From a virus: a stretch of 22,551 nt of DNA. Positions 8,101 to 22,200 of this stretch are shown here, in pieces. The stretch covers positions 1 through 22,551 of IMG/VR virus record IMGVR_UViG_3300032093_000911; one strand, given 5' to 3'. The notes beneath the pieces were generated by a model. It saw only the letters and a program-made list of their open reading frames with translations. It had not been told where the DNA came from and made no database searches. A program made the translations under genes and the position numbers. How positions within the stretch are numbered: position 1 is the first letter of the stretch; the number at the start of each line of letters is the position of its first letter.

Positions 8101-8136
8101 CGAAAAAGGGAGGAATTGGGGGGGGCGCGGCCCTGA

Positions 8137-8184
8137 TTTTCCCCGAAGTTTTCCCCGAAGTTTTCCCCGAAGTTTTCCCCGAAG
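8137..8184. repeat. Four perfect tandem copies of a 12-bp unit
   Basis: TTTTCCCCGAAG is repeated four times without a mismatch (8137, 8149, 8161, 8173). The array lies just downstream of the zinc-ribbon gene that stops at 8205 and upstream of the scaffold gene. The minus-strand transcript would read CTTCGGGGAAAA four times. Sites for a DNA-binding protein, or a slippage-prone spacer, are possible; I see no open frame here that looks coding. Confidence 0.8.
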
Positions 8185-19555: not shown

Positions 19556-19767
19556 ATTTTGACTCCTCCTTGTTGGTAGGTGTTCGTTGTTGCGCGGCGC
19601 TTCGCTGCCCACCACTTCTCCAGCGACGGCCGCAAAATCATCCATCCGCCCCGATTTCCCCTCGGCTTCTCGGCGGTAAAAGCTCCAGACCGGCAGAACA
19701 ACCGGAGAGTGAATGGCGCGTAACCCGTGAACTCCGACGCCTCCTCGACGCTGATCATCAATTTCAT
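19552..19767 (-). CDS. AlpA/excisionase-like helix-turn-helix protein
   Basis: 71 residues. ISVEEASEFTGYAPFTLRLFCRSGAFTAEK (5-34) has the helix, turn and wing pattern of HTH_17/AlpA-type DNA-binding proteins, with a beta wing and a following helix (SLEKWWAAKRR). In temperate phages such proteins act as excisionases or early regulators. It is the second gene of the early operon, after the RHH protein, and overlaps it by ATGA. Confidence 0.7.
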   Translation of the reverse strand: MKLMISVEEASEFTGYAPFTLRLFCRSGAFTAEKPRGNRGGWMILRPSLEKWWAAKRRATTNTYQQGGVKI

Positions 19768-19937
19768 TTCCGCGCCCCTCCCTTGGATTTCGTTTTGGCA
19801 TCCCGCTCCGACATGCGGCCCACCGCTTGAGCCACCAACCGACTAATAGGAGTTCCTGCCGCTTTGCTTTTCGTTTTGAGAAAGCCGTAGATTTCGTCCG
19901 GCATGCTCACCGATATTTTGACATATGCACCTTGCAT
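19764..19937 (-). CDS. Ribbon-helix-helix (CopG/Arc-type) regulator, first gene of the early operon
   Basis: A 57-residue protein. AYVKISVSMPDEIYGFLKTKSKAAGTPISRLVAQAVGRM has a short beta strand followed by two helices, the ribbon-helix-helix pattern of small DNA-binding repressors, and a basic C-terminus (RDAKTKSKGG). It opens the long minus-strand early operon and lies opposite a second RHH gene on the plus strand. Its start abuts the GTGCTACT operator-like repeats, so it may be autoregulated. It is the likely lysogeny/early-lysis regulator, by analogy with other phages. Confidence 0.75.
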   Translation of the reverse strand: MQGAYVKISVSMPDEIYGFLKTKSKAAGTPISRLVAQAVGRMSERDAKTKSKGGARK

Positions 19938-19938
19938 G

Positions 19939-20088
19939 AGTGCTACTGAATAAAACCGGTGCTACTAGGTAAAGAAAAAAAATAAATGGGGTGATCACCC
20001 CATACGAAAAAAACACTTGACACGCCCATAAACACTAGCTCGGCGGGCGAAAATAAAATTTGCACTCAGTGGCAAATGGTGCTACTGG
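19939..20088. promoter_or_regulatory. Divergent control region with three GTGCTACT operator-like repeats
   Basis: AGTGCTACTG (19939-19948), GGTGCTACTAG (19958-19968) and GGTGCTACTGG (20078-20088) share an 8-base core. The first two are 20 bases apart, about two helical turns, next to the minus-strand RHH start. The third sits just before the plus-strand RHH start codon. The region (19938-20095) between the divergent genes holds no other gene. It is a plausible repressor-binding region; RHH proteins bind such short repeated sites. Confidence 0.65.
19986..20003. promoter_or_regulatory. 18-bp perfect palindrome in the divergent control region
   Basis: ATGGGGTGATCACCCCAT is a perfect palindrome. 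It lies between the two operator-like repeats of the early side and TTGACA at 20017-20022, which could be a -35 box for plus-strand transcription; no good -10 follows at 17 bases. It may be a separate repressor site. Confidence 0.6.
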
Positions 20089-20095
20089 TGGGAAG

Positions 20096-20401
20096 ATGAA
20101 AACGAAAACCGGAGCATCGAAAGTCAATATTTCGATGCCAAAAGAACTCTACGACTATTTGAAAAAAATGGTCGATGACCACAACGCCAAACCAGAAAAC
20201 GCCCACTGCCCAACTGATTTTTCCAAGATGGTCCAGAAAGCCATCCGCGGCATAATGCAAGAAGACCGCAAACCAAAAAAATGCGAACCGGGAAAAGCGT
20301 CCTCCCCAGGATATGTTGGTGCCAAGATTTTGAAAGCGTCCGAGAGTTCCGCTTCTTCACACTCAACTCATGGCAAGAATCCTTCCCGAAAAACTGGATA
20401 G
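20096..20401 (+). CDS. Ribbon-helix-helix-like regulator, plus strand
   Basis: A 101-residue protein. KVNISMPKELYDYLKKMVDDHN (9-30) and the helix PTDFSKMVQKAIRGIMQE (about 39-56) match the ribbon-helix-helix pattern: a beta strand that pairs in the dimer, then two helices. A Lys/Ser-rich, probably disordered tail follows. It is divergent from the other RHH gene and the only plus-strand gene with the lipoprotein. The pair may form the lysogeny switch. The ATG at 20096 is chosen over an upstream TTG at 20060, which lies before the third operator-like repeat. Confidence 0.7.
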   Translation: MKTKTGASKVNISMPKELYDYLKKMVDDHNAKPENAHCPTDFSKMVQKAIRGIMQEDRKPKKCEPGKASSPGYVGAKILKASESSASSHSTHGKNPSRKTG

Positions 20402-20436
20402 GCCAGATTCACGACCTAACCTCCGCCAAAAAATGC

Positions 20437-20453
20437 GGGGGGGGGGGGGGGGG
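20437..20453 (+). repeat. 17-G homopolymer between the RHH and lipoprotein genes
   Basis: Seventeen consecutive G's, 39 bases upstream of the lipoprotein ATG, followed by an AT-rich leader. Such a tract is prone to slippage. In several bacteria tracts like this near a promoter tune expression, so it may make the lipoprotein phase-variable. A sequencing artefact in tract length is also possible. Confidence 0.85.
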
Positions 20454-20492
20454 TAAATTGCTGCTATTTATTATCTTACAACTTTAATACAA

Positions 20493-20867
20493 ATGAAAAA
20501 AATTTTGATTATTTTATGTCTGGCACTTAGCGCCTGCGCCACACAAAGCACCACACAAACCGAACGGCCCGACCCCGACTATTACGACCACCTCATCCAA
20601 GTCCAGAGCATGCCCCCCGGCGCCATCATCGATTTGAACAACGATGTCGTCGGAGTCAGCCCCTGCACCATCCTGGTCAAAGACTCCTACAAAGCCAACT
20701 GGCCCAGCAACGGCCTCACCAGCCAGATCATCAACGCCCGCTGGACCGACGGCTCCCGCTCCTACCAAACATTCTGCACCGGATCCCCGATCCCCAAGCA
20801 TGTCGTTTTCCTCCACCCCATCCCCAACAAAATCCTCGAGCAGCCCGCCGTCCTCACCCAGCGGTGA
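20493..20867 (+). CDS. Predicted lipoprotein with PEGA-like domain
   Basis: 124 residues. The N-terminus is a lipoprotein signal (KKILIILCLALSAC) with LSAC as lipobox, so Cys15 would be lipidated. The mature part carries a PEGA-like stretch (PPGAIIDLNNDVVGVSPCTILV), a small beta domain found in surface and secreted proteins, and a C-terminal Pro-rich tail. It is transcribed opposite to the lytic genes and near the integrase. Such moron-like genes are often expressed from prophages and alter the host surface or block superinfection. The 17-G run upstream may regulate it. Function beyond this is unknown. Confidence 0.75.
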   Translation: MKKILIILCLALSACATQSTTQTERPDPDYYDHLIQVQSMPPGAIIDLNNDVVGVSPCTILVKDSYKANWPSNGLTSQIINARWTDGSRSYQTFCTGSPIPKHVVFLHPIPNKILEQPAVLTQR

Positions 20868-20895
20868 TTCGCCATTCGCGAACTGCAAATCCCAC

Positions 20896-20922
20896 CTCTG
20901 TGCTCTCCGTGTCCTCCGTGGT
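20896..20922 (-). repeat. Dispersed 9-bp-unit repeat, copy 3 (three units)
   Basis: CTCTGTGCT-CTCCGTGTC-CTCCGTGGT, the third copy, here in the 73-base convergent gap (20868-20940) between the lipoprotein and integrase genes, where nothing else is seen. It is followed by GTTAAC, which partly matches the flank of copy 2. Confidence 0.8.
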
Positions 20923-20940
20923 TAACCTATAAGTTAATTC

Positions 20941-21942
20941 CTAAATCCGCCACCAAGCCCGCCAATCCGCCCGCACCGCCGGAACCGCATAGACCCGCTG
21001 CACCATCGCCGGCGAAGTGTGCCCCATCTGATATCCTGTGAGCCCCGCATTCCCGCACCGCCCGAGATGGTAGGTCGCAAACGAATGCCGCAGCGCGTTG
21101 TCCGGCCAGCCCTCCCAGCCAAGCGCCAACGCCACCTTCCGCCGGCGCTCATGCAGCGCCTCCATTGAGTTCGCCACAATCCGCCCCTTCTTCTTCTCGA
21201 AAAATTTCCTCCGCTTCATCAACGGCTCCGTCATATCCACAACCCGCTCCAGCATCCCCTCGTGCTGTTTCGAGACCTCCGCCCGCACATGGATCTGTTT
21301 CGTTTTCGTATCGATGTCTTCCCAATTCATACGAGCCACCTCCACCGTCCTTAGGCCCGCAAATCCTCCCAGCAGCACCAGCGCCATCACATCATCGCTC
21401 ATCGGCGCCTTGAGCAGCTCCTTCATTTGCTCGGGCGTCAAAATATTTCGCCCAGGTGTCGCCCGAGGAGCGCGAAGCCCATCCAACGGCGAGCGGTCAA
21501 TGAATCGCATCCGGTAGCACCAGCGGAAAAACATCCTCGCGTAACGAAACCACATCGCCTTGCTCGTCTCCGTCCGCCCGAGTTCCTTTAGCCAGCGGTC
21601 CACATCCAGCGGCATCACCTCATCCAGACGGCCGCGGAATTGCCGCATCAGCGCCACCTGAGTCGCCGCAATTTTATCTCGGTGGCTTTTACTTTGAGCG
21701 TCCACGCTCCGAACCCACAAGGTCGCCGCCTGCGAAACCAAAAGCCCCGCCTCCTCCTGCAGCCCATTTGTTCCCTTCTCTTGAATCAGCGAAACCAACC
21801 GTGCCCCCTCCTCAAAAGCCTCCGCCTCGCTGGCAAAAAACCGACGAATTTTTTTCCCGGCAAACGACTGCTTGATCTCCAGCTTCCACGGAGACGAAGT
21901 CCGAGCGGGGTAGGGAGAGACAATAAAAGGCGAAGCACTCAT
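20941..21942 (-). CDS. int: Tyrosine integrase
   Basis: A 333-residue tyrosine recombinase. The N-terminal 160 residues are a core-binding (SAM-like) domain (LWVRSVDAQSKSHRDKIAATQ, then RYARMFFRWCYR). The catalytic domain has Arg198 (GLRTVE), Lys225 (EVSKQH), Arg285 (NALRHSF), His308 (MGHTSP) and the nucleophile Tyr318 (RVYAV). The residue three before Arg285, usually His, is Asn282 here; such variants are known. The start is the ATG at 21942. It lies next to a tRNA-Ser 3' fragment, so it should integrate the phage into a tRNA-Ser gene. Confidence 0.92.
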   Translation of the reverse strand: MSASPFIVSPYPARTSSPWKLEIKQSFAGKKIRRFFASEAEAFEEGARLVSLIQEKGTNGLQEEAGLLVSQAATLWVRSVDAQSKSHRDKIAATQVALMRQFRGRLDEVMPLDVDRWLKELGRTETSKAMWFRYARMFFRWCYRMRFIDRSPLDGLRAPRATPGRNILTPEQMKELLKAPMSDDVMALVLLGGFAGLRTVEVARMNWEDIDTKTKQIHVRAEVSKQHEGMLERVVDMTEPLMKRRKFFEKKKGRIVANSMEALHERRRKVALALGWEGWPDNALRHSFATYHLGRCGNAGLTGYQMGHTSPAMVQRVYAVPAVRADWRAWWRI

Positions 21943-21951
21943 AGAGATTGA

Positions 21952-22200
21952 TGTTGATCGGTGTTGTCCGGCGTTGTCCAAACACTGCACTTAGGCATCA
22001 ACAATGATAAACAATCTTAAACGAATATCAACAGCAAAGACCGCCCGCAGAAGCAGACTAGTAAAGGCTCCAGAGGCTTACTGGAGGTGGCGGAAGGGGC
22101 GGGATTCGAACCCGCGGATCGTTGCCGATCGTTCGATTTCGAGTCGGTCAACTGCTTCTTAAATTCAACGACTTGCGTTGCTGTTGTCCGTTGTTGTCCG
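21952..22200. repeat. Integrase arm-site-like repeats on both sides of the core
   Basis: TGTTGTCCG occurs at 21962-21970, 22182-22190 and 22192-22200, with GCGTTGTCC at 21971-21979. TGTTGAT (21952-21958) and its reverse complement ATCAACA (21997-22003, 22027-22033) add to the integrase side. Tandem pairs on both sides of the tRNA fragment look like attP arm-binding sites. The stretch also contains a CTCCAG/CTGGAG hairpin (22068-22086); no other gene is seen in 21943-22232. Confidence 0.6.
22088..22146 (-). other. attP core: tRNA-Ser(CGA) 3' half
   Basis: On the minus strand this is the 3' part of a tRNA-Ser. The anticodon loop CTCGAAA (22137-22143, anticodon CGA) is followed by a stem strand, a long variable arm (GATCG-GCAA-CGATC), a T-arm (GCGGG TTCGAAT CCCGC, 22099-22115), an acceptor strand CCCTTCC, the G discriminator and CCA (22088-22090). 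The matching 5' half with D-arm is absent to the right: beyond the three-base CGA of the anticodon stem, the sequence departs from any tRNA. It is therefore a recombination core, not a working tRNA gene. Confidence 0.8.

Follow-up and report, generated by a model that had tools for sequence, protein, structure and literature searches.

What does a run of 17 consecutive G's do shortly upstream of a gene for a surface lipoprotein, and is the lipoprotein the gene on which it acts? The run lies in the window analysed here, a stretch of 22,551 nucleotides that is an entire IMG/VR record (IMGVR_UViG_3300032093_000911), which was compared with related records. An initial annotation had proposed phase variation, with the tract serving as a promoter element of the lipoprotein gene.

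The G17 tract and its surroundings

The G17 tract is real (Table 1). It ends 39 bases before the lipoprotein ATG at 20493, as first described, and nothing else in the window is comparable: the runner-up among G/C runs is a single G8 (8118-8125), and under a first-order Markov model only ~8e-6 G runs of at least 17 are expected on the + strand of the window. The tract is thus a repeat far longer than chance at one specific locus. A perfect 12-bp tandem repeat of 4.0 copies (TTTTCCCCGAAG) occupies window positions 8137-8184, close to the G8 run at 8118. Homologous tracts of G9-G18 are present at the equivalent position in 20 further loci, and these related contigs support the existence of the tract. 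Because the window is a complete record, the exact length of 17 depends on one metagenome assembly, and the early caution about an error in tract length holds, as homopolymer lengths in short-read assemblies can be off. An exact tract-flank search of viral contigs with TAAATTGCTGCTATTTATTATC gave no match, nor did phage records yield a DNA match to window positions 20000-21000.

Table 1. Features of the window at and around the G tract
Feature	Position	Strand	Remarks
Divergent Arc/RHH-like regulator	19767..19937	-	phrog_3180 Arc-like repressor, E 0.0011
Control region between divergent regulators	19940..20087	+	Repeats and palindrome
Zero-frame regulator gene	20096..20401	+	RHH/CopG-like, weak evidence
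Candidate -1 slippery heptamer G_GGA_AAA	20290..20296	+	In the regulator's zero frame
ORF2	20290..20487	+	-1-frame extension from heptamer to TAA (20485-20487); -1 frame constrained
ORF2 core CWCQDFESVREFRFFTLNSWQESFPKNWIGQIHDLT	20314..20421	+	Conserved among relatives
Example peptide from ORF2 core, EFRFFTLNSWQESFPK
G17 tract	20437..20453	+	17 consecutive G; glycine codons in -1 frame; sets frame of downstream peptide
Hydrophobic tail KLLLFIILQL	20455..20484	+	In phase after poly-Gly when G17
Lipoprotein, cargo gene	20493..20867	+	124 residues
Tyrosine integrase	20941..21990	-	Convergent with lipoprotein

The arrangement appears to resemble a lysogeny control region. An excisionase-like gene and the integrase adjoin the divergent regulator pair, and between the two regulators GTGCTACT(G/A) is repeated at 19940, 19959 and 20079, with a perfect palindrome, ATGGGGTGATCACCCCAT, at 19986-20003. 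Beside the integrase, window positions 22087-22180 look by eye like the 3' part of a tRNA-Ser gene, making an attachment site possible; ARAGORN found no complete tRNA.

The zero-frame protein of the window has no significant match to an RHH profile; its relatives match RHH_1 with E-values down to 3e-4, and the top PDB sequence match is MetJ (E 0.041). An AF2 model places helices at residues 16-31 and 42-58, with pLDDT below 50 from residue 62, so that the end of the protein is predicted disordered from roughly the position of the heptamer; fold searches with Foldseek found nothing. Across loci the N-terminal regulator modules fall into several unrelated-looking types, so that the conserved part starts near the overlap. 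L049, L051, L052, L053 and others carry different N-terminal regulator domains on a nearly identical overlap region, for example L052 versus L053 after QGKAQTVVGAV. This pattern suggests that regulator domains are swapped at the heptamer.

A conserved -1 frame overlaps the end of the regulator gene

The 3' end of this small regulator gene is overlapped in the -1 frame by ORF2, which carries the motif CWCxDPxSxREFRxWALNSxxxxLPxGWxGxIHDLT, followed by the tract, read as Gly codons, and then by a hydrophobic tail. A search with ORF2 matched 92 viral contigs, 80 of which were fetched, and ORF2 was also found on Verrucomicrobia MAG contigs titled Terrimicrobiaceae and Chthoniobacter flavus; within the order of one ORF2-bearing MAG it is present in 4/213 genomes. 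From R to DLT the core measures exactly 27 codons, without indels, in all 84 readable loci. Nearest-neighbour differences fall at ORF2 codon positions 3/1/2 in numbers of 201/123/69 (chi-square p ~2.5e-15, from pairs that are not independent), and the third positions of ORF2, where most differences lie, are second positions of the regulator frame. This concentration identifies the -1 frame as the constrained one.

ORF2 has no meaningful family match in Pfam, PHROGs or PDB, and its core has no protein match among phage records. The AF2 model is weak (pLDDT 64) and Foldseek searches with it came back empty, for which reason a strand predicted in the ORF2 tail was left out as evidence. ORF2 thus represents a conserved overlapping-frame protein family with no counterpart in these three collections.

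How might ORF2 be translated? Between the upstream stop and the core, 47 of the 67 distinct ORF2s contain no ATG, GTG or TTG, although the window's own ORF2 does have an ATG, at 20281. GGGAAAN occurs in the zero frame 39-60 nt upstream of the core in 48/67 distinct loci, the window included, as a slippery heptamer of the X_XXY_YYZ type before the overlap ends; it was found in no other frame of these distinct upstream regions. The codon preceding the heptamer encodes Q, P, S, E, T, K or L, and its final base is always G. From the scarcity of start codons together with the frequency of the heptamer, we infer that ORF2 is translated via -1 ribosomal frameshifting. Among heptamers of this type, G_GGA_AAG is very prone to shifting in E. 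coli, and G_GGA_AAC serves as a viral -1 shift site (PMC5009743). The remaining 19/67 loci have no canonical heptamer, some carrying GAGGAAAAG or other sequences. No consistent stimulatory RNA structure follows the heptamer (z -1.6 to 0.6) and no SD-like element was seen upstream of it; neither element is obligatory for -1 frameshifting, but their absence weakens the case.

Repeats at the site differ in kind and length between relatives

G runs of at least 9 are concentrated at the site, with 21 within 120 nt after the core versus 2 elsewhere in 448,642 bp. Sister lineages carry (AGCCACC)n, with n from 1 to 18, where others carry poly-G; as the 7-base unit is not a multiple of three, a length change of this repeat also shifts the frame. 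Interrupted versions of the tract exist as well (G9AG6, G7AG14 and G11TGGTGG), and in some members the repeat is absent or degenerate (L127/L132). In relatives without the repeat, the ORF2 stop often overlaps the next gene as ATGA, or ORF2 continues in frame into that gene.

Repeat lengths differ between close genomes. L075 and L085 have 14 versus 22 nt between flanks that are 98% and 98% identical, the near-identical pair L064/L075 likewise differs in tract length, and L072 and L077 have n=10 versus 4 heptarepeats with 99.3% identity upstream, a difference less exposed to homopolymer error. L107 and L108 have 16 versus 15 nt (flanks 99.3% and 100% identical), a single-base difference that is doubtful because lengths of 12-18 G from short-read assemblies can err by at least 1. 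Identical pairs from different samples have equal lengths (G14 in L075/L076, n=9 in L114/L116), which argues that tract lengths are not random assembly noise; by the same assembled sequences, length variation between phages is not universal. Since lengths vary between near-identical phages and a second repeat type occupies the site, we regard the tract as very probably a contingency repeat of variable length, and a change in its length alters the reading frame of a conserved sequence.

Contigs related by their integrase (39 contigs) contain downstream G runs in L011, L012, L014 and L015. A separate set of G9-G10 runs among the integrase relatives (L022 9530-9539, L023 9614-9623, L024 9089-9098, L036 5778-5787 and L012 10090-10098) shares a single conserved position within a gene for a DNA cytosine methyltransferase (GGFPCQDIS(S/I)AGGG(A/S)GIEGERSGLW). 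The methyltransferase frame is open in 5/5 of these loci, giving no sign of switching; the runs may possibly be a slippage site. They were rejected as instances of the same feature because they lie in an open frame of another gene.

The peptide that follows the tract is itself conserved. Twenty-four nucleotides after the tract are alignable in 12 loci, and one frame reads (K/N)xLxx(I/M)xL; within this limited set of related sequences, the synonymous share of codon differences is 30% in the tail frame versus 15% and 4% when the other two frames are read, and four loci have stops in the +1 frame. At least 7 of the 12 loci are out of phase as assembled and the tail is nonetheless kept, as expected if phase is lost and regained; in L127/L132 the tail is still in frame behind an interrupted tract. 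Pattern searches with the tail DNA returned no loci beyond those already known.

The tract goes with ORF2 rather than the lipoprotein

The lipoprotein call is backed by a signal peptide with lipobox (MKKILIILCLALSAC), in agreement with the initial annotation; no domain is indicated apart from a PEGA match below threshold (E 0.012). The tract occurs without that lipoprotein in L011/L058, L012/L047, L014/L048, L068 and L071, and the lipoprotein occurs without the tract in L007/L008; the tract therefore goes with ORF2. Where a cargo gene does follow, its start is close to the end of ORF2. At a tract length of G17, ORF2 stops 5 nt short of the lipoprotein ATG; one added G moves the stop to 36 nt before the ATG, and two added G's carry it past the lipoprotein start. 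In 5/5 loci assessed, the cargo gene starts 1-6 nt downstream of the in-phase ORF2 stop; the gap is 6 nt for L052 and L054 and 1 nt for L107 and L108. Two of these, L054 and L108, are assembled out of phase and show this spacing only after a one-base phase change. The 20 nt before the lipoprotein ATG contain no Shine-Dalgarno-like sequence. Translational coupling of ORF2 termination to the lipoprotein start is plausible from this spacing, and the tract may possibly affect the lipoprotein by that route; since a number of tract loci lack any cargo gene, coupling cannot be its general role. In L065, L066, L067, L069, L073 and L078, ORF2 continues in the same frame into the lipoprotein, possibly giving a regulator-lipoprotein readthrough product with an internal start.

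Alternative explanations

These observations bear directly on the promoter role proposed at the outset, in which the tract tunes promoter spacing or factor binding, as poly-G does in some Neisseria genes. Its distance of 39 nt from the ATG fits that idea, and by eye G17 would provide 17 nt of spacer ahead of TAAATT, which agrees with a -10 box at 4/6 positions. However, no + strand sigma-70-like promoter pair is seen in 19900-21000, and, unlike tracts of the Neisseria type, the G run neither separates a -35 from a -10 element nor adjoins a promoter for the gene downstream. Lengths of 9-18 hold no constant spacing, coding constraint acts on the region in the -1 frame, and tract and lipoprotein occur separately. 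The gene content of relatives and the missing promoter led us to reject this model as the main explanation, and we regard it as very unlikely. The phase-variation idea itself is partly supported by the sequences in an altered form, as coding-frame switching of a frameshifted regulator extension in place of lipoprotein promoter control. An artefact, either two-colour poly-G or an error in homopolymer length, is more improbable still. Contigs do break here, with ends within 130 nt after the core in 9/84 versus starts within 130 nt before it in 1/84 (Fisher p 0.018), five of the ends lying at the tract position and one within the heptarepeat, and after G18 L087 carries at 479-600 an apparent error-laden copy of the L085 flank, a caution for short-read assembly past G tracts. 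Yet position, strand and both flanks agree in ~20 contigs from many metagenomes, interrupted versions exist, and G14 is identical in two samples; an artefact accounts for uncertainty in length, not for the existence of the tract.

Two further readings accept the repeat and dispute what it does. If RNA polymerase slipped on the G tract, each cell would hold a standing mixture of C-termini and no heritable switching would follow; long homopolymers favour polymerase slippage and the assembled phases cover all three classes, but the heptanucleotide repeat of sister lineages supports replication slippage instead, and we consider this account unlikely. We give about the same low credence to neutral expansion by mutation, with the repeat as a flexible linker or as a recombination-boundary scar between regulator module and variable cargo, and no selected switch. 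Loci exchange both the N-terminal part of the regulator and the cargo downstream, poly-Gly could plausibly act as a linker, and L127/L132 are among the members whose repeat is missing or decayed. What speaks against neutrality is that two unrelated repeat classes occupy a single position, that such tracts are nearly absent elsewhere, and that tails are conserved though many assembled phases are off, which is unexpected for a neutral frame-breaking tract.

Proposed mechanism and significance

We consider it probable, though well short of certain, that slippage at the repeat makes the C-terminus of a frameshifted prophage regulator phase-variable and, in some phages, does the same to the translational coupling of a lipoprotein. 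In this model a temperate Verrucomicrobia phage would carry the G17 tract as a simple-sequence contingency repeat within the 3' portion of a regulator gene. Ribosomes translating the RHH-like regulator would slip -1 at G_GGA_AAA (20290), adding the conserved 'CWC...DLT' domain in place of a short disordered zero-frame end. A tract length of 2 mod 3, as in G17, would then lead from poly-glycine into the KLLLFIILQL tail and a stop 5 nt before the lipoprotein start; 0 mod 3 would give a stop directly after the tract, 36 nt before that start; and 1 mod 3 would give another tail, running beyond it. Replication slippage would thereby switch two properties, (a) how the extended regulator ends at its C-terminus and (b) how far the ORF2 stop lies from the lipoprotein start, hence possibly translational coupling; that it does so within populations, with an effect on regulator or lipoprotein, we infer from the sequences.

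A broader formulation, to which we hold only tentatively and with somewhat more doubt than belief, is a two-layer recoding switch in a lysogeny-type regulator. The frameshift would add a domain of no known family, and an interchangeable poly-G or heptanucleotide repeat would phase-vary its C-terminus and the lipoprotein coupling, so that sibling lysogens would differ heritably in regulator form or surface. If true, such repeats, recurring as two unrelated kinds in an overlapping frame tied to a regulator of temperate phages, would mean that prophages diversify sibling lysogens by a built-in mutational switch. A switch at this site appears to be undescribed so far, and we found no earlier description of one in the open-access literature. 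The repeats also suggest why contigs break and genes are mis-called at this site in viral metagenomes.

Comparison with known systems

For bacterial surface genes, phase variation through repeats is well established. Contingency loci include poly-G in Neisseria and Campylobacter and hepta- and tetranucleotide repeats in Haemophilus influenzae, and different repeat classes at equivalent positions in relatives are treated as circumstantial evidence for phase variation (PMC2651432). The present locus is like them in having length-variable repeats where slippage shifts the frame and repeat classes that differ between relatives at equivalent positions. In those loci, however, the repeat belongs to a surface gene, either to its promoter or to its 5' coding region, whereas here it is found in Verrucomicrobia phages, in the -1 frame that overlaps a regulator and close to the 3' end of that frame.

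The G/GT tail genes of phage lambda use -1 frameshifting on a heptamer of the G_GGA_AAN type. Haloarchaeal viruses likewise use -1 frameshifting on G_GGA_AAN (PMC5009743). The heptamer type and a C-terminally altered phage protein are common to these cases and ours; unlike them, the gene here is a regulator followed by a hypermutable repeat, the frameshift is predicted, and there is no clear stimulatory structure. In the cro gene of Lactobacillus phage A2, -1 frameshifting yields a product only 12 residues shorter, reported from decoding in E. coli (PMC5009743). Frameshifting in a lysogeny-decision regulator, predicted in our case, is the shared element, but the extension here is a conserved new domain. 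Finally, the gtr operons of P22-like prophages are phase-variable under the control of DNA methylation (PMC2909390); the locus described here is similarly prophage-encoded, cell-surface related and, we propose, phase-variable, but by repeat slippage where gtr control uses DNA methylation.
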